47,783 bases of DNA from Syntrophaceae bacterium (lineage in GTDB: Bacteria > Desulfobacterota > Syntrophia > Syntrophales > Smithellaceae), in contig PLGI01000084.1 of assembly GCA_003139775.1 (NCBI GenBank), positions 372 to 48,154 on the forward strand, read 5' to 3'. Of the stretch, positions 3,074-33,448 are shown piece after piece; within the stretch, counting starts at the first letter, position 1; every line of letters starts with the position of its first letter. Made by a program: the position numbers and the translations under genes. The notes under the pieces were generated by a model. That model made no database searches, was not told the origin of the DNA, and worked only from the letters and a program-made list of their open reading frames with translations.

Positions 3074-6000
3074 ATGAACCAGCAGACGAAAGAATATCTG
3101 GAAGGGCAATTCGGCAATCGCGTTAATTTTGATGAAATGGAGCGCGTATTATACAGTCATGATATAGCGGCAATACCTTCTCTCATTGCTCCGCTCATTG
3201 GCAAAACCGTTCCCGACGCGATTGTTCAGCCCCAAAGCGAAGAAGAACTGGTCCATCTCATTAACTGGGCCAGACAAAATAGTATCGCTCTTACGCCGCG
3301 GGCGAAAGCTTCTTCCGGATATGGCGGAGTACTGCCCATTAAGAAAGGGATCGTCGTTGATTTCTTCCGTCTGAACAAAATTATATCCATAGATAAGCAA
3401 GCGCAAACAGTTACCTGTCAGGCCGGTGTTGTCTGGGAAAAAGTTGATGCCGCGCTGAATAAAGAGGGGTTTACGGTAAATCTATATCCGTCCAGTTACC
3501 CCGGCTCTACTGTCGGCGGATGGCTGGCGCAGGGTGGTGCGGGCTTCGGCTCCTATCAATACGGCTGGTTTCGGGAAAATGTGGTTTCTGCCCGCGTAGC
3601 GCTGCCCGATGGTTCGGTGCGCGTCTTTACCGGCGCCGATCTGGATTTAATTGCCGATGCCGAAGGAACAACCGGTTTTATAATAGATTTAACGATGAAA
3701 GTTCAGCCTAAAGATGAACTCGAAATTATTGCCATCGGATGCCCGGAAGCACCCGCCCTCCAACAGATTGTGGAGGATATAGTAAAAGCAGAACTGCCTT
3801 TGTGGTCTCTGGTGTTCATCAATCCCCGGATGGCGGAAATGAAAAATCGGTCGCCGTTGATGGAACACAACGGTCATCCAACCGAAGAAAGAGTGCTTCT
3901 GCCTGCTTCCTATGTCGCAACGGTAGCTTTTCACAAAAAAGACGCGGCGCAAGTTATGGTTAGGCTGAAAGAAATATTGCGAAGTTGTCAGGGTGAAATA
4001 TTAAGTGAGCGCATAGCCGAACATGAATGGAAAAACCGTTTTAAAATAATGGTGGTCAAACGCCTTGGTCCCAGTCTGGTTCCCGCTGAAGTTGTCATTC
4101 CTCTTTCGCGATTGGGCCACTTCATGGCAGAAGTAGAAAATAAAATCAATCAGCCTGTCGTTAAAGAAGGCACAGTCATTCGCGAGGGTAAGGACGGAAT
4201 GCCTGAAGTTGTCATTCTGGGATTTATTCCAGCGGATCAGCGCAAATTCAGCTACAATTTTGTTTTCAGCCTTTCATTATCCATTATGAAAATTGCGGAA
4301 GCCAATGGTGGCCGCGCCTATTCCACCGGTTTATATTTCAAGGCTAAAGCCCAAAAAGTTTTGGGTAAAGAACGATTAGCCAGACTGAAAGCTTTTAAAA
4401 AGCAGGTTGACGAAAAGAATATTTTCAATCCCGGAAAGGTCATGGGCTACAATCTTATGGACAGCGCCGTGAGCATCGGCAATGCTTTTGAGCCGCTGAT
4501 TCGGCCTTTCGGCAATTACGTTATCACGCATATTGGAGAGAGAAAAAGTTATCCCTTAACCGACATTCCTGCGGATGTTGTCTGGTACGCATACAGTTGT
4601 TCTCAATGCGGTTACTGTGTGGAGGAGTGCGATCAATTCTATGGCCGCGGCTGGGAAAGCCAGAGTCCGCGCGGCAAATGGTATTGGCTACGGGAATATC
4701 TGGAAGGACGGGCCAAGTGGACTCAGGCGCAGATTGATACTTTTTTGGTTTGCACAACCTGTGAACTCTGCAATTTGCGTTGTTCCGCCGCTCTGCCCAT
4801 AGAGCCTTCCTGGATGAAGCTGCGCGGCAAGCTAATTAATAAGGAAAAGAGGATGACCTTTCCGCCGTTTGAAATGATGGCCGAAGCGCTGCGGAATGAA
4901 GGCAACATCTGGGCTGGTTACCGCAAAAACAGGACAGACTGGTTTCCGGAAGATCTTAAGGCCAAACATGGTCCCGGCCTCAAAGCTCCGGCAATGTATT
5001 TTGCCGGATGCACGGTAAGTTATGTGGAGCACGATATCGGCATGGCGACAGTAAGATTGCTCGACCGCGCCGGTGTAGATTTTACTTACGCCGGCAAACC
5101 GGAAAATTGCTGCGGCACCCCGATGCTGGTCGCCGGCAAATGGGATCTATTTGAAGATATCATGCGCAAAAACATAGAAGTTGTAAAACACACTGGTGCG
5201 GATACTGTTATTGCCTCCTGTCCGGCCTGCGATATGATGTGGCGTGTTGTTTATCCCGAATGGGCGAAGAAATTGGGCATTGATTACAACATCAAAGCCA
5301 AACACTACTCTGAAATTATAGCTGAGAAAATTAAATCAGGTGAATTTGTGTTTCCTGCAAATAATATGAAGCCGGTAAAAGTAACCTGGCATGACTCCTG
5401 TCATATCGGCAGGGCATCCGGTGTTTACGAACCGCCCCGTGATTTGATCAAGGCGATTCCTAATGTGGAATTTGTGGAAATGGAACATAACCGTGAGAAA
5501 GCCCATTGCTGCGGCAGTGTTCTGACTCTCATTAAAGATCCGCCGATAGCCGCTGAAATCGGTAAAACAAGACTCGATGAAGCGGTTGAAGTCGGCGCCG
5601 AGAAGCTGTTGGCGCTGTGTCCCTGCTGTCAGGTGCAATTACGTATTGCCGCGAAAAAGAAAAATATACCGGTGGAAGTCGTGGATTTGGCGCACCTGGC
5701 CGGAAACGCCTTGGGATATGATTTCCCTGATCCCAATCCTGATGTGCACAGCCAGTGGGGTGTTTTTGATGCCTTCATATCATTGATGTCACCGCAGGGT
5801 TTTGCCAATCTGATGGGAACAATGTGGCCGCAGTTAATCGATGCCATGCCCTTCGGTATGGGGCCGATGATGCGGGTCATGGGCAAGATTCCCGGCGCGC
5901 TCAATCTAATGAAACCAATGTTTCCCGTTCTATTTCCTATACTGTTGCCGATGATGATGCCGAAGGTAATGCCGGTAATGCTCGACAGAGTTGCCGCACA

Positions 6001-6151
6001 GATTGCCATGCCCGACTATATGCGTGAGCAGATGCCGGAGCTTATGCCCAAAGTTATGGATAGTCTTATGCCGCACATGATTGGTGATCTTGTGCCGCTG
6101 GTGACTCAGCCGATGATTGATTACCTGACGGGCAAGAATGTTGCTGATTAG
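3074..6151 (+). CDS. Fused FAD-linked oxidase / Fe-S / CCG-domain oxidoreductase
   Basis: 1025 residues. An N-terminal FAD_binding_4 (GlcD-type) domain fills about 1-460 (PGSTVGGWLAQGGAGFGS near 140). Two CxxCxxCxxxC ferredoxin motifs follow near 510 (CSQCGYCVEEC) and 560 (CTTCELCNLRC). Two CCG domains lie at about 645-720 and 775-860, each with a Cys-Cys-Gly and a CPAC/CPCC motif, as in GlpC, HdrB and LldE. The family oxidises 2-hydroxy acids such as D-lactate or glycolate, or passes acyl-CoA electrons to quinone or other carriers; the substrate here is unknown. The last roughly 110 residues are an unusual Met/Pro-rich tail with repeats like MPKVM and LMPHM. The start follows CAGGAGG. Confidence 0.85.
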   Translation: MNQQTKEYLEGQFGNRVNFDEMERVLYSHDIAAIPSLIAPLIGKTVPDAIVQPQSEEELVHLINWARQNSIALTPRAKASSGYGGVLPIKKGIVVDFFRLNKIISIDKQAQTVTCQAGVVWEKVDAALNKEGFTVNLYPSSYPGSTVGGWLAQGGAGFGSYQYGWFRENVVSARVALPDGSVRVFTGADLDLIADAEGTTGFIIDLTMKVQPKDELEIIAIGCPEAPALQQIVEDIVKAELPLWSLVFINPRMAEMKNRSPLMEHNGHPTEERVLLPASYVATVAFHKKDAAQVMVRLKEILRSCQGEILSERIAEHEWKNRFKIMVVKRLGPSLVPAEVVIPLSRLGHFMAEVENKINQPVVKEGTVIREGKDGMPEVVILGFIPADQRKFSYNFVFSLSLSIMKIAEANGGRAYSTGLYFKAKAQKVLGKERLARLKAFKKQVDEKNIFNPGKVMGYNLMDSAVSIGNAFEPLIRPFGNYVITHIGERKSYPLTDIPADVVWYAYSCSQCGYCVEECDQFYGRGWESQSPRGKWYWLREYLEGRAKWTQAQIDTFLVCTTCELCNLRCSAALPIEPSWMKLRGKLINKEKRMTFPPFEMMAEALRNEGNIWAGYRKNRTDWFPEDLKAKHGPGLKAPAMYFAGCTVSYVEHDIGMATVRLLDRAGVDFTYAGKPENCCGTPMLVAGKWDLFEDIMRKNIEVVKHTGADTVIASCPACDMMWRVVYPEWAKKLGIDYNIKAKHYSEIIAEKIKSGEFVFPANNMKPVKVTWHDSCHIGRASGVYEPPRDLIKAIPNVEFVEMEHNREKAHCCGSVLTLIKDPPIAAEIGKTRLDEAVEVGAEKLLALCPCCQVQLRIAAKKKNIPVEVVDLAHLAGNALGYDFPDPNPDVHSQWGVFDAFISLMSPQGFANLMGTMWPQLIDAMPFGMGPMMRVMGKIPGALNLMKPMFPVLFPILLPMMMPKVMPVMLDRVAAQIAMPDYMREQMPELMPKVMDSLMPHMIGDLVPLVTQPMIDYLTGKNVAD

Positions 6152-6303: not shown

Positions 6304-6954
6304 TTATTTACGGCCAATTATCAGAAACAATGTAAACAAACGGGTAGGCCCATAGCCAACCGCTTTTTCAACCTGAGCAGTTGCCCGATGTCGAACATCA
6401 CGAAATCCTGCGCCTATAAACATTCTGTGCAATTCTTCCCGGTCAAAGCCAAAGTGGAATACACCTTCATTATCGCTGTGAAATTGGCCATCATCCAAAT
6501 CCAGATCGGCAATAGCCAGTTGGCCGGATGGAAGTAAAATCGAATAAAATTGTTCTAACAAAGGAGCTATGTTTTTAATGTGATGCAATGTCATACTACT
6601 GACAATAAGATTATAGGAACCAGTCAGAACATCACCATTGTCCAGATCAATGAATTCAGCTTTTACATTGTTTAGGTTTTGTTCTTTTATCTTTGTTTTA
6701 AAAACATCCAGCATTCCTTGGGAAATATCCACACCGGTTATGGAACGGACAAGAGGCTGTAAAGAAAATGTCAACAATCCTGTGCCGCAACCGAAATCCA
6801 TAATGTCAATATCAGGTGTTAAGGTTATCTCTTGAATCATGCTATGAGCTATATCCTGAGCTACTTTTACACGCCTAGGAACCTGATCCCAGCTAGCGGC
6901 TTCCTGATCGAAATTGTGCTTTTTAGTATTTATTTCATCTCCTCCTAGCTTCAC
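6304..6954 (-). CDS. Class I SAM-dependent methyltransferase
   Basis: 216 residues with a Rossmann methyltransferase fold. Motif I DFGCGTG lies at about 53-59, the acidic residue after strand 2 is in GVDIS, and SSMTLHHIKN precedes strand 5. This is the Methyltransf_11/UbiE-like layout; the substrate is not evident. The GTG start overlaps the TGA of the upstream DUF2892 gene by four bases (GTGA), which indicates translational coupling and supports this start. It is last in the operon trxA - micro-protein - DUF2892 - methyltransferase, so a role in thiol, selenium or metalloid chemistry is possible but not shown. Confidence 0.8.
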   Translation of the reverse strand: MKLGGDEINTKKHNFDQEAASWDQVPRRVKVAQDIAHSMIQEITLTPDIDIMDFGCGTGLLTFSLQPLVRSITGVDISQGMLDVFKTKIKEQNLNNVKAEFIDLDNGDVLTGSYNLIVSSMTLHHIKNIAPLLEQFYSILLPSGQLAIADLDLDDGQFHSDNEGVFHFGFDREELHRMFIGAGFRDVRHRATAQVEKAVGYGPTRLFTLFLIIGRK

Positions 6955-7157
6955 TTTGATTTGCCAATCGTTGAAATTTTAAAAGGCATATATAAAGGGC
7001 AAAAACCGATCATGCTTGTTATTATAAACACAATTGCCAGAATACCCAGAATGATCGCTGCAAAACCTGTAATGCTGCCGGTTATATATAGGATAATAAC
7101 GACAATGGCCAGCACTATTCTAATAATCCGATCTATCGTTCCCATGTTCTTTTTCAT
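6951..7157 (-). CDS. DUF2892 small inner-membrane protein
   Basis: 68 residues. The opening (KNMGTIDRIIRIVLAI) and the closing GFCPLYMPF are hallmarks of DUF2892, the YgaP-type membrane module with two helices around a short turn. It has one cysteine, in GFCPLY. In other proteins the module is fused to or adjoins rhodanese or thioredoxin-like proteins, and here thioredoxin is two genes upstream. AAAGGAGAAG precedes the ATG. Its stop overlaps the next start. Confidence 0.85.
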   Translation of the reverse strand: MKKNMGTIDRIIRIVLAIVVIILYITGSITGFAAIILGILAIVFIITSMIGFCPLYMPFKISTIGKSK

Positions 7158-7191: not shown

Positions 7192-7350
7192 TTATCTGCT
7201 TTTCTGATCGCCTTCTACCTTAGGTTTTTCTTTCTTATCCACCGGACAAGCCTGCCTTGCTCAAGTGGAGACTCCCATGCGCGGCAATAGCCACGTCTGT
7301 AAAAAAATCCACACAGCCAGGATCAAAAGTAAAATCAATATATCGTTCAT
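7192..7350 (-). CDS. Candidate selenoprotein: membrane micro-protein with in-frame UGA
   Basis: ATG at 7350-7348, in-frame TGA at 7263-7261 (codon 30), TAA at 7194-7192. Residues 1-25 form one hydrophobic helix (DILILLLILAVWIFLQ) ending in LLPRMGVST. If UGA is read as selenocysteine, the chain continues U-ARQAC-PVD and a lysine/glutamate-rich tail, giving 52 residues with a U-x4-C redox pair just outside the membrane helix. A SECIS-like hairpin lies at 7234-7250. The gene starts 59 bases after trxA and ends 34 before the DUF2892 gene, so it is within that operon. If UGA is a true stop, a 29-residue membrane peptide remains. The ribosome site is weak (AAGAAAGAAG). No selA, selB, selC or selD gene is in this window. 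Confidence 0.6.
7234..7250 (-). promoter_or_regulatory. Candidate bacterial SECIS element
   Basis: On the minus strand CUUGUCC-GGU-GGAUAAG forms a 7-bp stem (one G-U pair) with a three-base GGU loop. Seventeen bases separate the UGA (7263-7261) from the loop. The published bacterial SECIS model expects a small apical loop with a G near its start, about 16-37 bases after the UGA, so both criteria are met. The sequence also encodes AC-PVDK, so it must serve coding and structure together. Confidence 0.55.
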
Positions 7351-7409: not shown

Positions 7410-7745
7410 TTAGTTCAAGTTTTTATCAATCAACGCTGCAAGTTGATTTTTAGATAACAATCCGATCTGAGTATCCTGCACTTTGCCGTTTTTAATCATA
7501 ATCAATGTCGGTATGCTTTGTACGCCATATTGGGATGCCGTTGCCGGATTATCATCGACATTAACTTTGACCACGTTTATCCGATCATTGTATTGAGCCG
7601 CGAGTTCCTCAAGAATTGGGCCGATTGCCCTGCAGGGGCCGCACCAGGACGCCCAGAAATCCACCAGGGTCGGTTTTTCTTCTTTTAAGACCAATGTACT
7701 GAAATTACTATCATCCGCATGTTTCACAAATTCTGAATTACTCAT
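7410..7745 (-). CDS. trxA: Thioredoxin
   Basis: 111 residues, a normal thioredoxin length. The active site WCGPC lies at 34-38 with the usual preceding VDFWASW, and the cis-proline loop is SIPTL near 79. There is no signal peptide, so it is cytoplasmic. It reduces disulfides using thioredoxin reductase, which is not in this window. AAGGAG precedes the ATG. It is the first gene of a four-gene minus-strand operon, and its promoter region carries an FNR-type box. It is divergent from the Crp/Fnr regulator at 7880, which is the probable controller. Confidence 0.95.
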   Translation of the reverse strand: MSNSEFVKHADDSNFSTLVLKEEKPTLVDFWASWCGPCRAIGPILEELAAQYNDRINVVKVNVDDNPATASQYGVQSIPTLIMIKNGKVQDTQIGLLSKNQLAALIDKNLN

Positions 7746-7879: not shown

Positions 7880-8566
7880 TTGCATATGGATGTCACCAAC
7901 CAGATAAAGGATATTGGCCTATTTCAGGGCGTTTCTTCAGAAAAAATACGCTTGCTTGCAGCACAGGCAATATACAAAAAATTTAAACCCGGCGAAATGG
8001 TTATCGGCGAGACAGATCCTATACGGTCTTTTTATGTGGTCATTTCCGGGCAGTTGAAGCTCTATAGGAGTTCAGCGGAAGGCAAGGAACAGACACTCCA
8101 ACTGCTCGGTCCGGGAGATCCTTTCGGCCTGTGCACGGCATTCGCAACTGATTCCTTTCCGGCTTCCGCCATGGCCATTGAAGATGCTGCCGTCCTTTTA
8201 ATTCCCGGCACAATCATGGAGTCAATAGCAAGGCAGGAACCAGCACTCTTGTTCAACATCATTCAGATATTATCACAACGCCTCAAGGATTCTATGACAC
8301 TCATTGAATCACTTGCTTTAAAGGAAATTCCCGGGCGATTGGCATCTTTCCTACGTCATTCATTACCCAGGGATTCCTCAGACAAAAAGACTGCTGTGAA
8401 ATTGACGATTTCACAACGGGAACTTGCCAAGATTTTGGGTGCCACACCGGAAGCCCTTTCCCGTGCCCTAAGAAAAATGGCCAAGGAAGGTATTCTCTCC
8501 ACATCAGGCCGTATAATAACCATTCTGGATCACAAAGCGCTGGAACAACTGGCAGAAGGGGAATAA
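7880..8566 (+). CDS. Crp/Fnr-family transcriptional regulator
   Basis: 228 residues from a TTG start. A cyclic-nucleotide-binding-type beta roll spans about 15-125 (GEMVIGE, FYVVISGQLKLYR, LGPGDPFG), followed by a long dimer helix and an Fnr-type HTH (TISQRELAKILGATPEALSRALRKM, about 175-200). It has one cysteine, so the 4Fe-4S oxygen sensor of FNR is absent. The ligand is unknown; nitric oxide, haem or redox sensing as in DNR-type relatives are options. The TTG at 7880 sits nine bases after GGAGGAG. An in-frame ATG at 7886 is the alternative. It is divergent from the trxA operon and shares a perfect FNR-type box with it. Confidence 0.85.
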   Translation: MHMDVTNQIKDIGLFQGVSSEKIRLLAAQAIYKKFKPGEMVIGETDPIRSFYVVISGQLKLYRSSAEGKEQTLQLLGPGDPFGLCTAFATDSFPASAMAIEDAAVLLIPGTIMESIARQEPALLFNIIQILSQRLKDSMTLIESLALKEIPGRLASFLRHSLPRDSSDKKTAVKLTISQRELAKILGATPEALSRALRKMAKEGILSTSGRIITILDHKALEQLAEGE

Positions 8567-24709: not shown

Positions 24710-27700
24710 TTATATTCTCACTTCGACCTTGTGCTCCTTCCCATCATCAACAAGGGGAATCGTTTTTTCGCTTTGCTCGACACCATCAACGGTCACTTTC
24801 ATTTCTCCCTCGCCTGTTTGCGCGCGCAGGATGGCTATGTGGTAGATTGTTTTCCGGTACCGGTAATGTACATTGAAGCCATCCCAATCCGCGGGAAGAC
24901 ACGGCGTGAAACGCAGTTTGTTTCCTTCACGCTGCAGTCCCAGAAGCGATTCCACGATCAGCCGGTACATCCAGCCGGCCGAGCCGGTGTACCACGTCCA
25001 GCCGCCGCGGCCGGTATGCGGCGGGAACGCATAGACGTCGGCCGCGACAACGTAAGGTTCTACTTTGTAAGTCGCAATCGCTTCGGAAGATTTCGCGTGG
25101 TTCACCGGGTTAATCATAGTCATAATTTCCCAGGCACGGCGATTGTCCCCCAAAGCCGCAAAGGCCATCGCCGCCCAGATTGCTCCATGAGTGTATTGTC
25201 CTCCATTCTCTCTTACGCCGGGGACATATCCCTTTATGTAGCCGGGATTCAAATTGGACTTATCGAACGGCGGTTCCAGGAGCTGAACTATTCCAATGTC
25301 GCTGTGAACGAGGTATTTATTCAGTGCTTCCATGGCCAGACGCGAATGTTCGGCATCTCCGGCCCCGGACAAAACAGACCAGCTTTGGGCTATTGAATCA
25401 ATCCGACATTCGGGGTTTTTAGCCGAACCAAGAGGCGAGCCGTCATCAAAATAAGCGCGGCGGTACCACAAACCGTCCCATCCATGCTGTTCTATATTCA
25501 AGCGCACCTGTGACGCTTCTTTTTCACAATGTTCGCCAAAACTTGTGTCGCCGCGCCGGCGGGCAACTTCCGCAAATTGCATCAGGACTTTATAAAGGAA
25601 AAAACCCAACCAGACGCTTTCGCCTTTTCCCTTTATCCCCACCATGTTCATGCTGTCGTTCCAGTCTCCGGAGCCCATGAGCGGCAATCCGTGCTCACCA
25701 AATTGCAGTCCCTTATTGATTGCCCGTACACAGTGCTCATACAAACTGGCCGTTTCTGGAGACCGGCCGGGCAAATCGTAATATGAATCCTCCTCCATGT
25801 TTATCGGACGGCCTTTAATAAAGGGGATAGATTCATCCAATATCCCGGCATCACCGGTACTTGATATATAGTGACAGGTTGCAAGGGGCAGCCAGAGGTA
25901 ATCGTCGGAGCATTGCGTACGCACACCACGGCCCAGAGGGGGATGCCACCAATGCTGGACATCTCCTTCCTGAAATTGGCGGGAGGCGCAAAGAAGCAGA
26001 TGCTCGCGCGCAAAGCCCGGTTCGGTGTGAATGAGTGCCATTACATCCTGCAACTGATCGCGGAAGCCGAAGGCGCCCCCCGACTGGTAGTTTCCGGTTC
26101 GCGCCCAAAGCCGGCAGGCCAGCGTTTGATATAAAAGCCAGCCATTTGCCAGCACGTTGAGGGAGGGATCGGGTGTTTCCACTTGCACAGTTCCCAGCGT
26201 TTGATCCCAGTATTGTCGCACGGCATCAAGAGCGTCGCGGGCTGCGGTTTCTCCCCCAAAAATATGCACTAGTTTTCGGGCGTCATCAACATCGCGTCCC
26301 AGGCCGAGAGTGAAGACAATTTCTTTTTCTTCCCCATCGGCCAGATCAAATGGAACCTGAATTGCGGCGCAGGGATCCAATCCGGCGCCAACTTTGCCGG
26401 AGAGATGCAGCCGTTTCATGACCGCCGGATCGTGCAGCGTTCCATTACGTCCCACGAATTCCGTTCGATTGCCGCTTAAAGTTCGCGTCAGAGCGTCGGT
26501 GTTGAAGAAGGCAACCCGGTTGGGGAACTCCGTGTTGTAGGGGTTGCGCGCAAAGATAGCGCCGCTTTCGAGGTCAACATCGGTAATCACATACATGGCT
26601 GTTTTCGTTCTGAGGTCGCCCAGAACCCATTCCGCATATCCCGTAGCGGAGAGGCGGCGCGCTCTCCCCGTTTTATTTTTCACCTTCAACACGGTGAACT
26701 TAATCGCTGCGTCCAGAGCCACGTAAACCCATACCTCAGAGTGGATGCCGCGCTCTGTATGCTCGAAAACACTGTAGCCAAAACCGTGCCGGGTTATGTA
26801 AGGCGTCTCCCCGCGTCTGGGCAGCGGCATAGGGGACCATAAGTGGCCGCGCTCCTCATCGCGCAGGTAAAGGACTTCTCCACTACTGTCGCTCACCGGA
26901 TCATTATACCACGGTGTGAGACGGAACTCATGGGCATTCTCGGCCCAGGTATAGGCCATACCACTCTCGGAAATGACGGTGCCGAACAGAGGGTTGGCTA
27001 GCACATTCACCCATGGCGCCGGCGTCACCTGATTTTGGACAGTCGAAATTACGTATTCGCGCCCATCAGGGGTGAATCCGCCCAGCCCATTATAGAAAAT
27101 AAGGTTGCGGTCGGGCAATTCGGCGATCGGCGCGTCTATGGCGCGATGGGTACGGGTCGGCATCAGTCGCGGCACCGCTATTTTCAAACTACCGCGCCGG
27201 TTGACCTGGTTTGCCAGTGTTCCTTTTTTATCGGTGATGATAACGTGAGCAACCGTTTGAATCAGGATGCGGTCTTCTTCTGATATCTGGTCCGTGGATC
27301 TGACAAAAATACCGCCGAGCTGATTGTCTAAGATGTCGACGGTGCCTGAGGCAATTAGTCCCATAATCTGGTCGTGCAGAATTTGCCGGTAACCGGCATG
27401 ATCTTCATTCCAGATTACGAGGTCCACGGCTAATCCTTTTAATCGCCAGTATACATGCGCCTGTACGAGTTGGCGTACCAATTCAATATTGGCCTGGTCG
27501 GCAATTCTCAACAATACAATTGGTAAATCGCCGGATATAGCGTAGCCCCATAAACCGGATTGCCCCCGGTGATTTTCGGTGATGACGCTGGAATCAGCGC
27601 GCAGTGAGGCATTACCGTAGATGACGGAGCTGGCAATGTGGCAGTAAAACTGAGCGTTGGCCTCTGTAGCATTGATCTGACGCAGAAGTACCTGACTCTG

Positions 27701-30700
27701 CGTCCAGGCCAGATCGAAAACGCGATCCGCGATCCGCTGATCCTGATATTTTTCGACCAGAGTTAAAGCAGTATCCCTGGTTTCGCCGATTCCGAAAACC
27801 ATATCAATTGTAACCGATTGCTCCGGGTCAAGCGTTATTCGGGACCGGATGGCGACAATCGGATCAAGTACCGAACCTTGACTGCCCGAGAGTGTTCCAA
27901 AGAGATCGGCAGGAGAACCCATCGCTTGTGGATTACTGACGGTGTTTCCGCGGCCGATAAATTGCATCCGGTCAGTCTCGTAGGAAATCTGCTCGATCTT
28001 TGCCCCATATACGGCCATCAGGTGAAACATCCAGGGATTTTTCTCGCTTTCGGAACGCGGCCGGCGGGTGCAAAGAATCGCCCGGCGCTGTTCGATGATC
28101 TCGGCTTGAACAAATAGATTGCTGAATGCCGGATGAATCTTGTCTGTGGCAGGGGGGGCCAAAACCACTTCCGCATAACTCGTGACGTCAATGGTCCTTC
28201 GCGACCGCGAGCGGTTTTCTATGGTGGTACGGCGCAGTTCGATATCATCTTCCGGCGAAACAGCGATTTTTGTATGGACGTTAAAATCATTATCCTGGCG
28301 GCGAAATTCCACACGGCCATCCGAAAAAATGGCCTCGTAATGCAGAGGTTGTTTGAGCGTAGGCTGATAGGCCGTTGACCAGACATTCCCGCTCGTTACA
28401 TCGCGGAGATAACAGAAAGTGCCATAATTGTCACAGGTACTGTCTTCCCGGAAACGGGTGATGGCCATGTCTTTCCAACGGCTGTAACCGCCGCCGGCAT
28501 TTGTCACCATTAGGTGATATCTGCCGTTTGAAAGCAACTGTACTTCCGGAACCGATGTGTCGGGGGTGATAAAAACACGCACCGGCGTTTCCATACTAAC
28601 GGACTCCCTATGTGAATTAGCGAGCTCTGTGGGGGACGTATAAAAAGCGATGGCCTGGGGAACCCGCTCCTGGAGCAATAACATGGTTGCCTGGAACAAT
28701 GGTTCCGACTCAAATCGCTTTTGCATCGGCCGGTCCAGGAGCAAATAGACCAACGCAAGCAATGTCATACCCTGATGATGTGCCATGAAGGAACGAACCA
28801 CAGCGTTCGATTGCCCTCGCGACAGGCGCGACGGTGTATAGTCGATCGCTTCATAGAAACCGAATCTTCCTTCAAAACCTGCCACTGTAAGTTTTTCCAG
28901 ATTCCGGCACGCCTCCTCGGGCGCCACCATTAACGCCAGCGCTGAGGCATAGGGGGCAATGACCATATCCTCGGCTAATCCACGCTTGAGACCAAGGCCG
29001 GGAACACCAAAGGCGCGATACTGATAGTTGAGGTGGCCATCAATGGCGTTGTAGCCCGATTCCGAAATACCCCAGGGCACGGCGTGCTTCTTTCCATACT
29101 CTATCTGTCTGGCCACAGCCGCCTTATAAGTTTGGTCGAGAAGAGAGTTTTCATATGTAGGCATAACCAGAAGCGGCATGAGGTATTCGAACATGGAACC
29201 GCTCCATGATACTAGAACCGGCCCTCCGCCGGTGGTGGTAAGGAGCCGTCCCAAGGCGAACCAACTCTCCTGGGGTAATTTTCCCTGCGCGATTCCCACG
29301 AAAGTGCAAAATCTCGCTTCCGCTGCCAGCAAATCGTAGAAACTTGTATCCCGCCGCCAGCCACCGACGTTGTATCCGATAGCTAGCAAATTACATGCCT
29401 TATCAAACAGAAAGTCGTATTCTATATGGGTGAAATCGCTGCATTGCTTTGCCAGCCCTTCAATTTCCGCCATCAAGGCCCCGGCGCATCGACTGGCATC
29501 GGCAACGAGTCTGCGAAGTTCACCAATTTGCATACGCTCATCGGGCGTTATATTAGTTTTCATCTGCTCCTCGATGGCAGATAGCAATTCAGCTTCAAGA
29601 CCTGTTACTTTTCGCAAAGTCGGTATATCATTTAAATTTGGCAATTTGTTAATCATGTCCGACAATGCCGGGTAAAATATCCAAGGTGCGAGAAACCGCA
29701 GATCATCAAGGGCTGTCCGGCATTGATCGGTAAATTCCTTTGCCCACCATCTCAATGGGCTATCGGGATCACTATCGGAGATATTGACGTCTGTAACAAT
29801 CTGGGTTGCTGATGTTGCCAGTTGTTCGAGGGACAATCGTATCGCCATGAGAGTGGTTGGTTTGGAAGTAATCGCGGAAGCCAGATCCTTTTTAAGCCCA
29901 ACGAGAGAAACAGGGGGAGATTTTCCCGCCGTATCCGCGAAAACATCAAGGGTATCTTTAAGTCCCGCAAAAAGTTGCGAACTTACGATTTTCTGATCGG
30001 GAAGGGCGAGGATACCCGACCGTAATATCAACAGATGTCCTGTAAGGTTTCCGCTGTCCACCGACGAAATGTAGAGTGGCAGCAGCGGTTCCAGAGATTG
30101 CGTATCATACCAGTTATAAAAATGACCTTTATGGCGGTCCATAGCTTCCATCGTGCGAAGTGTATTTGCCGTGCGCTCGATGAATTGACGCATTGTGATG
30201 TAGCCGAAATCGCAGGCGGAGAGATTGGCCAGAAGAGCCAGACCCATGTTAGTCGGCGACGTGCGATGGGCGACCACGGCAACGGGCTGTTCCTGATAGT
30301 TGTCCGGCGGCAGCCAATTATCATCCGGACCAACAAAGGTTTCGAAAAAGCTCCATGTTTTCCGGGAAATTTTACGAAGAAAAATAATCTGGTTGGACGT
30401 AAGTTTTGCTTCATGATGAGCAAATGGCCGGCTGAACAAATAGGCGATCAGGGGAGAAATCAGCCAGATAAAGAGGAGCGGCCCGGCCACTGCCAGAGAG
30501 GCCGGACGGGAAAAAAAGATGGTGACTGCCGTGACAGCGGCAAATACCGGAGCGAACCACATAGCCCCAAAGTAGTTGACCATGTCATTGCGACGGTTGC
30601 GACGGGGGGTGTCCGATGGATTCCATTCAAGGAGCCGTTTGTGCGAAATCAATATCCGCCATAGAGTGCGCCCAATCGCATCAATACTGAAATAAGCCTC

Positions 30701-33448
30701 ATAGGGCAGGCAGATGAGCGTAAATGCTGCCTGCATAAGGTGATTGCCGGCTGTATGTATCGCAGAAGTTAAATGCTGCGTCAACATTACATCGCGCGGT
30801 TTTTGAAACAGATTTAGTGCAGACATGATTAAAGAAGGAAGCAAGATAATTCCGAGGATCGACAGTGTCCAGAACCAGGCCGTAGGCAGTACTGTCCAGC
30901 CCAGTACCATCAGAAGGGTCAATGCTGCGGATATGAGGCTCCTGCGCAGATTATCGAAAATCTTCCATTGAGACAGCATTGACAAGGGATTCTTCTGAGT
31001 GCGCCCGTCGGTGGCGGGAACACTCGATCTGATCCATCGCGCAATCTGCCAGTCTCCGCGTATCCAACGATGCCTGCGGCTCACATCCACGTTGTAGCAG
31101 GATGGATATTCCTCGTATAACTGCACGTCGCTTATCAATCCCGCCCGGGCGTAACATCCTTCGATAAGATCGTGACTGAGAATCTGATTTTCGGGAAGTT
31201 GCCCATTAAGGGCGGCCTCGAAGGCATCAACATCATATATGCCCTTGCCGATGAACGAACCTTCCCTGAATATATCCTGGTAAATATCGGAAACGGTTTG
31301 AGTATAAGGATCAATACCGGAATTACTCCCATACATAGCCGCATACAGCGACCGGCTCATATCGGGTAGGCTTATGGAAACCCTTGGCTGCAGTATGCCG
31401 TATCCCTTGCTGACACGCTTCTTTTCTTCATCATATTGCGCACGATTCAGTGGATGCGCCATGGTTCCTACAAATTGCCATGCCGCATCACGTGGCAGCT
31501 TTGTATCCGTGTCGAGAGTGATAACATACTTCACATTTCTTAATACCGTCGTATCACCGACGATGAGCGAAAAGAAATCTCCAGAAGGACCCTGCGTTCT
31601 TCCGCGCAGAAAGGCATTCAAATCCGCCAGTTTCCCCCTTTTTCGTTCGTAACCCATCCAAATCCGTTCCTGAGGATTCCAGCGGCGTGGGCGATGGAAT
31701 AAGAAGAACATATCGCCTTTTGAATCCTTGTACTTTTCATTTAACCCTTCAATCCCTTTCTTGGCCAGCTGCAGAAGTGGCTCATCATCCGGCAGCGTTT
31801 CTTCCTTAGCGTCCCGAAAGTCGGTCAGGAGGGCGAAACGCAGATTGTCGTCCCGATTGGCCAGAAATCGGATTTCCAATGCTTCTATTAAATTTGGGAT
31901 GTTTTGCGCGCTGAGAAGCATGGTCGGAACTGCAACCAGGGTGCGGTATTCAGGTGGTATTCCCTTGGAAAAATCCATTCGCGGCAAGGGATGGGGCGCC
32001 ACCAGCAGAGTCGCCAGCCAGTTTACCAGGGCTATAGCCAAGTGGCTCGTACATAGAAGCGCGAGGAATCCGAGGATGGCCAATGGCCAACCATGCAATC
32101 CATCGGTATGTGCCTTCGCCAGTAAACTCCCTGTAAATATGATGGTCAATCCTATGATAGCACCAATATACAGCAATAAAGGAATTCGGCGGCCTAACCG
32201 TATAATTTCCTCAACCGGTGATAAACGCACTTTCATCAGTTGTTCGAGTTCCGACAATCCCTTGTCGATCAGATAGAAACCAACATGCGCCGTGCAGTCA
32301 TAACGGCCATTTTTTGCACTGCATTTGCGGGCGAGGCTTATCGCCGTGCGCGCCACTTCACTTTCGGGCGAGCGACTTTTCTTGGCTATTTTCTCTACGA
32401 CATGGCGGTAACGGTCACGGGTGGAAAAATCCATTTTGACGTAAATGTCGGGGGCATCCTCACGCAGGATCTGATCGACCACACTCATCGTTTCGACAAA
32501 CTCGCGCCAGTCCATTGCACCCAGAAAACGAAGACTGCCGATACTGTTGCTCATAGAGACCTGATCTGCGGCTTGTTGCTGGGTCTCCAGATGCACTAAT
32601 GCTTTTATTGTCTGGCCGTACTCGGAGAGGCGCTGCTCAATCCAGGTAAGCGGCAAGGCCAGAGAAGGACTTTGCCCTTGCAAGCGACGGGTAATTTCTG
32701 CAATAAACGCACCCACCATCGGCGGGTCTGACCGCACCATGTCCGCGATTTCCAGAAACAGGCTTTTCGGGTCTTTCTCGGCGATTACTGTCATCCGATT
32801 AGCCCAATGATCGGCTATATTGCGGTTGGCTCTGTCGGTAGATATGCGGACGGCGATACGTCGAATATTTTCGATCAACGCCAGGCGCAACATAATAGGA
32901 ATTGCCCACAATTCACCAAGAGTAAGCACGGTTACTGTCTGGTAGGCGGCTACAAATAGACTAAGAGCCTTCGAATCCACCTGCCCATCGCCATGGGAGA
33001 TCATCTCCAGCGCAATGTCATATACCCGCGGAAGAGCAGCCGATGGGCCATTTGCCAGGTGAGGCAGTTCCCGGCTGTAAACTTTTGGCAAATGCCTTCT
33101 GGCTGTGCGAATTTGTTCTTCGATCAGATAGAAGTTATCCAGGAACCATTCTTCGGCCGGTGTAATATGATGGTTGTCCCCAACCGCCTTCGTCAACAGG
33201 TTTCTAACGCCAAACAGGACATTTTCATTATCGGCCATCCTTGCCAGCAGTTGATTCGAAGTGCGCCCCGGACTCAACTTGTGTGCGCCCGCGATGGTTT
33301 TGCCATGCTGCTGCATCTGCTTGGCACTGAATAATTCCGATCGCAGCAACAGTTCGTTACTGGCATGTATTTTCTGTGAGTCTTTACCCGGAAGGTGCGC
33401 CTTTAACTGACTTAAGTATCTAAGAATGATCTTGCTGTTCATTTCCAC
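24710..33448 (-). CDS. ndvB: Cyclic beta-1,2-glucan synthase (GT84-GH94)
   Basis: 2912 residues, the usual huge size of NdvB/ChvB. In order: an N-terminal region, two helices near 430-485, a GT84 domain with LDTDTKL near 644 and RRHRWIRGDWQ near 796, about five more helices to about 1005, a glycoamylase-like domain (about 1080-1560), beta-sandwich domains (about 1600-2350), and a C-terminal GH94 phosphorylase domain with GSGDWNDSMN near 2590. The family initiates, elongates and cyclises beta-1,2-glucan from UDP-glucose at the inner membrane. The product is a periplasmic osmoregulatory or surface glycan. GGAGTAGG precedes the ATG. No transporter like NdvA is adjacent. Long open frames on the opposite strand are shadows of its high coding bias. 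Confidence 0.92.
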   Translation of the reverse strand: MEMNSKIILRYLSQLKAHLPGKDSQKIHASNELLLRSELFSAKQMQQHGKTIAGAHKLSPGRTSNQLLARMADNENVLFGVRNLLTKAVGDNHHITPAEEWFLDNFYLIEEQIRTARRHLPKVYSRELPHLANGPSAALPRVYDIALEMISHGDGQVDSKALSLFVAAYQTVTVLTLGELWAIPIMLRLALIENIRRIAVRISTDRANRNIADHWANRMTVIAEKDPKSLFLEIADMVRSDPPMVGAFIAEITRRLQGQSPSLALPLTWIEQRLSEYGQTIKALVHLETQQQAADQVSMSNSIGSLRFLGAMDWREFVETMSVVDQILREDAPDIYVKMDFSTRDRYRHVVEKIAKKSRSPESEVARTAISLARKCSAKNGRYDCTAHVGFYLIDKGLSELEQLMKVRLSPVEEIIRLGRRIPLLLYIGAIIGLTIIFTGSLLAKAHTDGLHGWPLAILGFLALLCTSHLAIALVNWLATLLVAPHPLPRMDFSKGIPPEYRTLVAVPTMLLSAQNIPNLIEALEIRFLANRDDNLRFALLTDFRDAKEETLPDDEPLLQLAKKGIEGLNEKYKDSKGDMFFLFHRPRRWNPQERIWMGYERKRGKLADLNAFLRGRTQGPSGDFFSLIVGDTTVLRNVKYVITLDTDTKLPRDAAWQFVGTMAHPLNRAQYDEEKKRVSKGYGILQPRVSISLPDMSRSLYAAMYGSNSGIDPYTQTVSDIYQDIFREGSFIGKGIYDVDAFEAALNGQLPENQILSHDLIEGCYARAGLISDVQLYEEYPSCYNVDVSRRHRWIRGDWQIARWIRSSVPATDGRTQKNPLSMLSQWKIFDNLRRSLISAALTLLMVLGWTVLPTAWFWTLSILGIILLPSLIMSALNLFQKPRDVMLTQHLTSAIHTAGNHLMQAAFTLICLPYEAYFSIDAIGRTLWRILISHKRLLEWNPSDTPRRNRRNDMVNYFGAMWFAPVFAAVTAVTIFFSRPASLAVAGPLLFIWLISPLIAYLFSRPFAHHEAKLTSNQIIFLRKISRKTWSFFETFVGPDDNWLPPDNYQEQPVAVVAHRTSPTNMGLALLANLSACDFGYITMRQFIERTANTLRTMEAMDRHKGHFYNWYDTQSLEPLLPLYISSVDSGNLTGHLLILRSGILALPDQKIVSSQLFAGLKDTLDVFADTAGKSPPVSLVGLKKDLASAITSKPTTLMAIRLSLEQLATSATQIVTDVNISDSDPDSPLRWWAKEFTDQCRTALDDLRFLAPWIFYPALSDMINKLPNLNDIPTLRKVTGLEAELLSAIEEQMKTNITPDERMQIGELRRLVADASRCAGALMAEIEGLAKQCSDFTHIEYDFLFDKACNLLAIGYNVGGWRRDTSFYDLLAAEARFCTFVGIAQGKLPQESWFALGRLLTTTGGGPVLVSWSGSMFEYLMPLLVMPTYENSLLDQTYKAAVARQIEYGKKHAVPWGISESGYNAIDGHLNYQYRAFGVPGLGLKRGLAEDMVIAPYASALALMVAPEEACRNLEKLTVAGFEGRFGFYEAIDYTPSRLSRGQSNAVVRSFMAHHQGMTLLALVYLLLDRPMQKRFESEPLFQATMLLLQERVPQAIAFYTSPTELANSHRESVSMETPVRVFITPDTSVPEVQLLSNGRYHLMVTNAGGGYSRWKDMAITRFREDSTCDNYGTFCYLRDVTSGNVWSTAYQPTLKQPLHYEAIFSDGRVEFRRQDNDFNVHTKIAVSPEDDIELRRTTIENRSRSRRTIDVTSYAEVVLAPPATDKIHPAFSNLFVQAEIIEQRRAILCTRRPRSESEKNPWMFHLMAVYGAKIEQISYETDRMQFIGRGNTVSNPQAMGSPADLFGTLSGSQGSVLDPIVAIRSRITLDPEQSVTIDMVFGIGETRDTALTLVEKYQDQRIADRVFDLAWTQSQVLLRQINATEANAQFYCHIASSVIYGNASLRADSSVITENHRGQSGLWGYAISGDLPIVLLRIADQANIELVRQLVQAHVYWRLKGLAVDLVIWNEDHAGYRQILHDQIMGLIASGTVDILDNQLGGIFVRSTDQISEEDRILIQTVAHVIITDKKGTLANQVNRRGSLKIAVPRLMPTRTHRAIDAPIAELPDRNLIFYNGLGGFTPDGREYVISTVQNQVTPAPWVNVLANPLFGTVISESGMAYTWAENAHEFRLTPWYNDPVSDSSGEVLYLRDEERGHLWSPMPLPRRGETPYITRHGFGYSVFEHTERGIHSEVWVYVALDAAIKFTVLKVKNKTGRARRLSATGYAEWVLGDLRTKTAMYVITDVDLESGAIFARNPYNTEFPNRVAFFNTDALTRTLSGNRTEFVGRNGTLHDPAVMKRLHLSGKVGAGLDPCAAIQVPFDLADGEEKEIVFTLGLGRDVDDARKLVHIFGGETAARDALDAVRQYWDQTLGTVQVETPDPSLNVLANGWLLYQTLACRLWARTGNYQSGGAFGFRDQLQDVMALIHTEPGFAREHLLLCASRQFQEGDVQHWWHPPLGRGVRTQCSDDYLWLPLATCHYISSTGDAGILDESIPFIKGRPINMEEDSYYDLPGRSPETASLYEHCVRAINKGLQFGEHGLPLMGSGDWNDSMNMVGIKGKGESVWLGFFLYKVLMQFAEVARRRGDTSFGEHCEKEASQVRLNIEQHGWDGLWYRRAYFDDGSPLGSAKNPECRIDSIAQSWSVLSGAGDAEHSRLAMEALNKYLVHSDIGIVQLLEPPFDKSNLNPGYIKGYVPGVRENGGQYTHGAIWAAMAFAALGDNRRAWEIMTMINPVNHAKSSEAIATYKVEPYVVAADVYAFPPHTGRGGWTWYTGSAGWMYRLIVESLLGLQREGNKLRFTPCLPADWDGFNVHYRYRKTIYHIAILRAQTGEGEMKVTVDGVEQSEKTIPLVDDGKEHKVEVRI

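Follow-up and report, generated by a model that had tools for sequence, protein, structure and literature searches.

The stretch of DNA analysed here (47,783 nt; hereafter the window) carries on its minus strand a very short gene, at positions 7192-7350, which encodes 52 residues when a single in-frame UGA is translated as selenocysteine (Sec). The frame runs from ATG (7350-7348) through the UGA at codon 30 (7263-7261) and the codon for Cys35 (7248-7246) to TAA (7194-7192). It reads MNDILILLLILAVWIFLQTWLLPRMGVST-UGA-ARQACPVDKKEKPKVEGDQKSR-TAA and yields the protein MNDILILLLILAVWIFLQTWLLPRMGVST-U-ARQACPVDKK...; a plus-strand reading of the same interval was rejected because it is not open there. 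A thioredoxin gene (7410-7745, minus strand; TIGR01068 at 130.6 bits, PF00085), whose product has the motif WCGPC and no evident signal peptide, is located 59 nt upstream, and the gene of a YgaP-like_TM protein (6951-7157, minus strand; PF11127, DUF2892, at 79 bits) with a cysteine in the motif GFCPLY is located 34 nt downstream. The end of the latter is overlapped by the start of a gene for a SAM-dependent methyltransferase (6304-6954, minus strand; PF13489, PF13649), which is also found at loci L047, L048 and L163 and is likely a member of the same operon. A Crp/Fnr-type regulator (7880-8566, plus strand; PF00027, PF13545) is encoded divergently from the thioredoxin operon and occupies the same divergent position in related loci; it is possible that it controls the operon.

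Two further frames of the window were noted in passing. Positions 3074-6151 (plus strand) encode a FAD-binding/CCG-domain protein of 1025 residues that ends in a long Met/Pro-rich tail, and relatives of this protein have their genes close to that of the selenoprotein in L048, L114, L164 and L170. Positions 24710-33448 (minus strand) form one unusually long open frame of 2912 residues.

The 52-residue product consists of one membrane helix (about residues 2-24), Sec30, Cys35 and a charged tail. Its AlphaFold2 model shows a single helix spanning residues 2-24, with a mean pLDDT of 89-90 for residues 1-20, followed by a tail that is unordered and of low confidence; the model contains no catalytic fold, and no thioredoxin fold surrounds the Sec. 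The first four residues have a mean charge of -0.5 and the tail a net charge of +3.1, so that, by the positive-inside rule, the protein likely adopts an N-out/C-in topology with the Sec facing the cytosol, an orientation that is inferred from the charge pattern only.

Just after the UGA, and inside the coding sequence, the minus strand forms a SECIS-type hairpin of 7 bp (7234-7250), with the arms CTTGTCC (7250-7244) and GGATAAG (7240-7234), a GGT loop (7243-7241; GGU in the RNA) and one G.U among the seven pairs. The stem begins 10 nt and the loop 17 nt after the UGA, which is inside the range of 16-37 nt given for the apical loop of bacterial SECIS elements (PMC13188914). Of the 109 unique genes, 81 have a hairpin of at least 6 bp-equivalents that is located at SECIS distance and whose loop opens with a G, as opposed to 4.5 expected after synonymous-codon shuffling, which keeps the protein. 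In an alignment of 30 relatives, 91% of the cells were paired in the stem, compared with 35-48% when the partner was slid (two rows are out of register owing to a one-codon deletion, which lowers the pairing figure); four of the seven pairs had changes on both sides, and the covariation score was reached by no shuffle. An Rfam scan of the window returned no SECIS match, nor any other match except a tRNA.

The UGA is kept in nearly all homologs from two phyla, and no clear homolog has TAA or TAG in its place. The terminal codon varies among the 109 genes (TAA 47, TGA 35, TAG 27), whereas the Sec codon is UGA throughout; the reading of the terminal codon halts at a second UGA, and the 35 cases of TGA may thus include further Sec codons. 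The sequence downstream of the UGA is under selection in the proposed frame, with a pN/pS of 0.42 as opposed to 1.09 and 0.77 in the shifted frames (30 Syntrophales sequences, 14 codons downstream of the UGA). Forms with cysteine in place of Sec are very rare in the family, and no such homologs were found on plasmids. One clear case, L186, was found in the acidobacterial genome G717 (IPEWLKAILFVAGYFALMRWVLPAMGIGTCMSGACKVP; motif GIGTCMSGAC), where the best SelB-type match scores 113.8 bits and remains under the cut-off of 242.25.

The genome to which the window belongs (3.4 Mb, completeness 100) possesses SelB (361.6 bits, cut-off 242.25), SelA (620 bits), SelD (385 bits) and a tRNA-Sec (77.4 bits, anticodon TCA). 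Among 395 Desulfobacterota genomes, for which the counts were tallied by hand, the gene is more common in those with SelB over the cut-off (159/353) than in those without (8/42; Fisher p 0.0014). The eight genomes with the gene and no SelB over the cut-off are all draft assemblies, and assembly gaps are a likely, if unproved, explanation. Among the U-bearing acidobacterial genomes tested, 15 of 16 had SelB over the cut-off; in the exception (G528), the SelB matches were fragmentary only. As a separate observation, the SelD match of the window's own genome (L207, C54:485-1414) contains one in-frame UGA, and SelD is probably a selenoprotein itself in this organism. The same genome also has two tRNA-Sec candidates, both with anticodon TCA (L010 and L011 on contigs C37 and C174; 77.4 and 49.6 bits), where one would be usual.

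The gene, its recoding signature and the machinery are thus shown, and it is almost certain that the gene encodes a genuine selenoprotein and that the UGA at 7263-7261 is decoded as Sec, although there is no direct evidence of expression or of selenium. The initial annotation, which was made from sequence alone, had proposed a 52-residue frame at 7192-7350 with a TGA at codon 30, and this frame held; the strand had gone unstated and is minus. It had also described a 7-bp hairpin with a GGU loop, which likewise held, and had placed it 17 bases after the UGA, a distance that applies to the loop and not to the stem. The sequence-based tests among those it had named, namely a conserved UGA with a hairpin in homologs, cysteine in place of U in a homolog, and selA, selB, selC and selD in the genome, all came out in favour of its reading (the cysteine form in one genome), and a lack of conserved sequence downstream of the UGA, which would have refuted it, was not observed, as such sequence is present.

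The selenoprotein belongs to a family that is shown to extend over two phyla. Homologs were found in 70 of the 149 relatives searched, including a genome placed in the same genus, Smithella sp. SCADC (genome G001, locus L047), by which the window is assigned to a Smithella-like member of Syntrophales; every match had one in-frame TGA. A profile of 32 members recovered homologs in 167 of the 395 sampled Desulfobacterota genomes (42%), with a TGA inside all listed matches; the weak ones were inspected by eye, and nearly all had the TGA at the Sec codon. The family was also detected in 53 of 199 sampled genomes of Acidobacteriota (27%), the phylum of record L051, again nearly always with the TGA. 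The weak matches G650, L105 and L106 were excluded as homologs, and sampling was limited to the two phyla. Genome G529 was considered as a third phylum and rejected, as it belongs to the same phylum as the window (identical contig positions were recovered).

Over 71 diverse members, the core of the family comprises a hydrophobic helix with W14 followed by L-P-[KR]-x-G-[VI]-x-T-U, in which P23, G26 and U30 are invariant; a threonine directly precedes the Sec in 96 of 109 members. In 86 of the 109 members, the first cysteine follows the U at a distance of five residues, and in seven at a distance of six. No downstream cysteine was found in another seven, some of which are readings that break off at a second UGA; such a cysteine is wholly absent from L090, L091 and L102 (KTULVPMNRQEAV...). 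Four members of one Desulfobacterota family (L095, L097, L099 and L100; f97) contain two Sec codons (GLPSUGAPVD...RPIPTUDGPSCSIG), and in three of them (L097, L099 and L100) a 9-bp hairpin of the form TTCGATTGG-GGG-CCAATCGAA comes after the second UGA; these four appear to be double selenoproteins. Since the spacing of the cysteine varies, some members lack a downstream cysteine and one family has two Sec codons, U-x4-C is a common feature of the family and not a defining one.

Two other variants were observed. A paralog-like frame of 39 residues in L109 and L110 (genomes G293 and G202; also in G266), MEDVLIIILVIAFFVALFKWVVPRLKPPTSFSCPTUATKR..., has the motif C-x-x-U, with a CTGCGGGCCGCAG hairpin downstream of the UGA, and may represent a second small membrane selenoprotein. 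Genome G357 (C109) carries the family twice, as neighbouring divergent copies that differ in frame (L101 and L108); in one of them a stop follows the UGA at a short distance, and this copy may be decayed.

Both the thioredoxin gene and the YgaP-like gene are conserved neighbours of the selenoprotein gene in two phyla. Among 30 Syntrophales loci (counted by eye), thioredoxin is encoded upstream on the same strand in 22, in 20 of them within 150 nt, and the YgaP-like_TM protein is encoded downstream in 11. In the acidobacterial loci L174, L181, L182 and L183, the order is DUF2892, selenoprotein and thioredoxin, with gaps of 1-13 nt between the profile matches; the YgaP-like gene is also upstream in further acidobacterial loci and directly upstream of the cysteine homolog L186. 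A rhodanese-selenoprotein fusion, considered for acidobacterial loci with long upstream open frames, was rejected, as these upstream frames are merely a separate YgaP-like_TM gene read out of frame. Other acidobacterial loci (L195, L196 and L205) have as neighbours YgaP (rhodanese plus YgaP-like_TM), a metallo-beta-lactamase/rhodanese protein, which we take to be persulfide-dioxygenase-like from its domain content, and a TauE/SafE transporter, whose gene ends 7-9 nt before the selenoprotein start. Rhodaneses are encoded near the selenoprotein in L197 and L200, a disulfide reductase-rhodanese upstream of L186, and a thioredoxin-reductase-like protein upstream in L120.

The linkage to thioredoxin, YgaP-like or rhodanese genes is thus recurrent, and it is not universal, because no adjacent gene of these three kinds was found in most of the sampled Desulfobacterota outside Syntrophales; the neighbours in many Desulfobacterota are diverse and include RND transporters and respiratory Fe-S/cytochrome b genes. 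The neighbour counts rest on ORFs that we called ourselves and on profiles of our own making, and representatives were confirmed with Pfam. Because related loci do not count as independent observations, the raw numbers are weaker evidence of linkage than its recurrence in two phyla with a changed gene order. The initial annotation had inferred a membrane-tethered redox selenoprotein with a U-x4-C selenenylsulfide pair that is served by the adjacent thioredoxin. The pair is partly upheld, as the spacing fits 86 of the 109 members, and the thioredoxin link is supported because the pairing recurs in a second phylum with the gene order altered. The membrane redox reading is supported overall, with the actual redox role still an inference, and the YgaP-like protein is a further partner absent from that account.

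A functional link of the selenoprotein to thioredoxin and the YgaP-like protein is likely, and we consider the best explanation to be a membrane-bound selenol that works together with these two proteins, probably in the thioredoxin-linked reduction of sulfane sulfur or disulfides, with the redox cycle and the substrate being inferred. The cell's own SelA/SelB/SelC/SelD system, guided by the hairpin that closely follows the UGA, would insert the Sec, and the selenol would be held at the cytosolic face of the membrane, six to seven residues past the end of the helix (LP[KR]xG[VI]xT-U). Its putative partners are the YgaP-like membrane protein and the cytosolic thioredoxin, the neighbouring gene of which is probably co-transcribed. 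YgaP itself has a cytosolic rhodanese domain and carries a cysteine, C159, at the C-terminus of its second membrane helix (PMC4730233); the YgaP-like neighbours keep a cysteine near the protein end (GFCPLY, NWCPM). It is from the topology of the Sec, the position of C159 and the near-terminal cysteine of the neighbours that a selenol relay at the cytosolic face is inferred. The selenol may accept sulfane sulfur or oxidising equivalents, for example from the conserved cysteine of the YgaP-like protein, and the resulting Se-S intermediate would be resolved by the downstream cysteine, usually five residues on. Thioredoxin would then reduce the selenoprotein, with release of sulfide if the substrate is a persulfide. 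The substrate is unproven, and the case for sulfane sulfur or persulfide at present falls slightly short of even.

The main rival explanation, which remains possible, is that the same selenoprotein is a membrane-tethered peroxidase or disulfide reductase that acts on lipid hydroperoxides or protein disulfides and is recycled by thioredoxin. It is favoured by thioredoxin being the most consistent neighbour, by the thioredoxin-reductase-like gene in L120 and by the threonine that usually precedes the Sec; however, the YgaP-like_TM neighbour in both phyla and the recurrence of YgaP, rhodanese, persulfide-dioxygenase-like and TauE genes nearby in Acidobacteriota point to sulfur species. It is unlikely that the protein serves as an adaptor or small subunit in the membrane, where it would bind a metal or a larger complex, with its selenol as a ligand and not a redox catalyst. 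The very short protein without a catalytic fold and the varied neighbours in many Desulfobacterota, including the transporter and respiratory genes, would agree with such a role, but the usual cysteine five residues past the U and the linkage to thioredoxin suggest redox turnover. That the UGA is an ordinary stop and the hairpin a terminator or other regulatory structure is all but excluded: a 29-residue membrane peptide would hold the entire helix, and ordinary gene finding would call the gene so, if at all, but no clear homolog has TAA or TAG at this codon, the downstream frame is under selection, cysteine takes the place of U in a genome without SelB, and the G-loop hairpin is located at SECIS distance inside the coding sequence.

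The preferred selenol relay can be extended to a bolder reading, in which thioredoxin, the selenoprotein and the YgaP-like protein form an unrecognised membrane-bound relay that, at the cytosolic face, reduces sulfane sulfur (persulfide or polysulfide) in two phyla. Such a relay would have been overlooked because its central component has only about 50 residues, is interrupted by a UGA and hardly ever has cysteine in place of Sec; on the present evidence, we are more inclined to doubt this reading than to accept it. For anaerobes exposed to sulfide, the family provides a candidate selenium-dependent membrane step. What YgaP acts on in vivo has been described as unknown (PMC9774250), and the family offers the YgaP-like domain a partner and a testable role. 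With 42% of the sampled Desulfobacterota and 27% of the sampled Acidobacteriota, this would be a widespread bacterial selenoprotein family; standard annotation would truncate the member in the window at its internal UGA. Being very short, interrupted by a stop and nearly always in the Sec form, the family falls into a blind spot of current methods. The authors of deep-Sep have stated that their method may miss selenoproteins without cysteine homologs (PMC12013277), a description that the present family nearly fits.

No family of NCBIfam 20.0 or Pfam-A scored over its curated cut-off for the 52-residue protein, and the 71 family members gave only scattered weak matches (best E 0.0021). A 2026 catalogue lists 119 prokaryotic selenoprotein families and subfamilies (PMC13188914), none of which recognisably corresponds to this family in name, motif or model; the negative NCBIfam scan accounts for those of its entries that are based on NCBIfam. 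No description of a comparable small membrane selenoprotein was found in the open-access literature searched, although one may exist elsewhere.

In comparison with known systems, the family shares with the catalogued selenoproteins that depend on a bacterial SECIS (PMC13188914) the in-frame UGA, the G-loop hairpin at the usual distance, the sel genes, a redox-type motif and a cysteine homolog, but differs in its architecture of a single helix and a tail without a catalytic domain and in the great rarity of cysteine forms. TsoB (NF045694), a rhodanese/DsbD fusion-like selenoprotein with the motif UxxxxU, is similar in the U-x4 spacing and the sulfur/thioredoxin theme; it is, however, large and multidomain (model of 572 positions), and the family gave no match to NF045694. 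The membrane sulfurtransferase YgaP of E. coli and PF11127 (DUF2892) resemble the selenoprotein as small membrane proteins that carry a thiol-type residue close to the end of a helix, and are genetically linked to it here, but the selenoprotein, with its single helix, gave no match to the two-helix domain PF11127; the YgaP-like protein is a neighbour and not a homolog. The eukaryotic SELENOK and SELENOS are single-pass membrane proteins with the Sec in a flexible, charged cytosolic tail. The family resembles them in being single-pass with the Sec in a charged tail, a likeness of layout that implies no sequence relation, and differs from them in the bacterial SECIS inside the coding region and the thioredoxin-operon context. 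We consider it likely that the window presents the ordinary bacterial Sec mechanism in the service of an apparently uncatalogued and unusually small family of membrane proteins.
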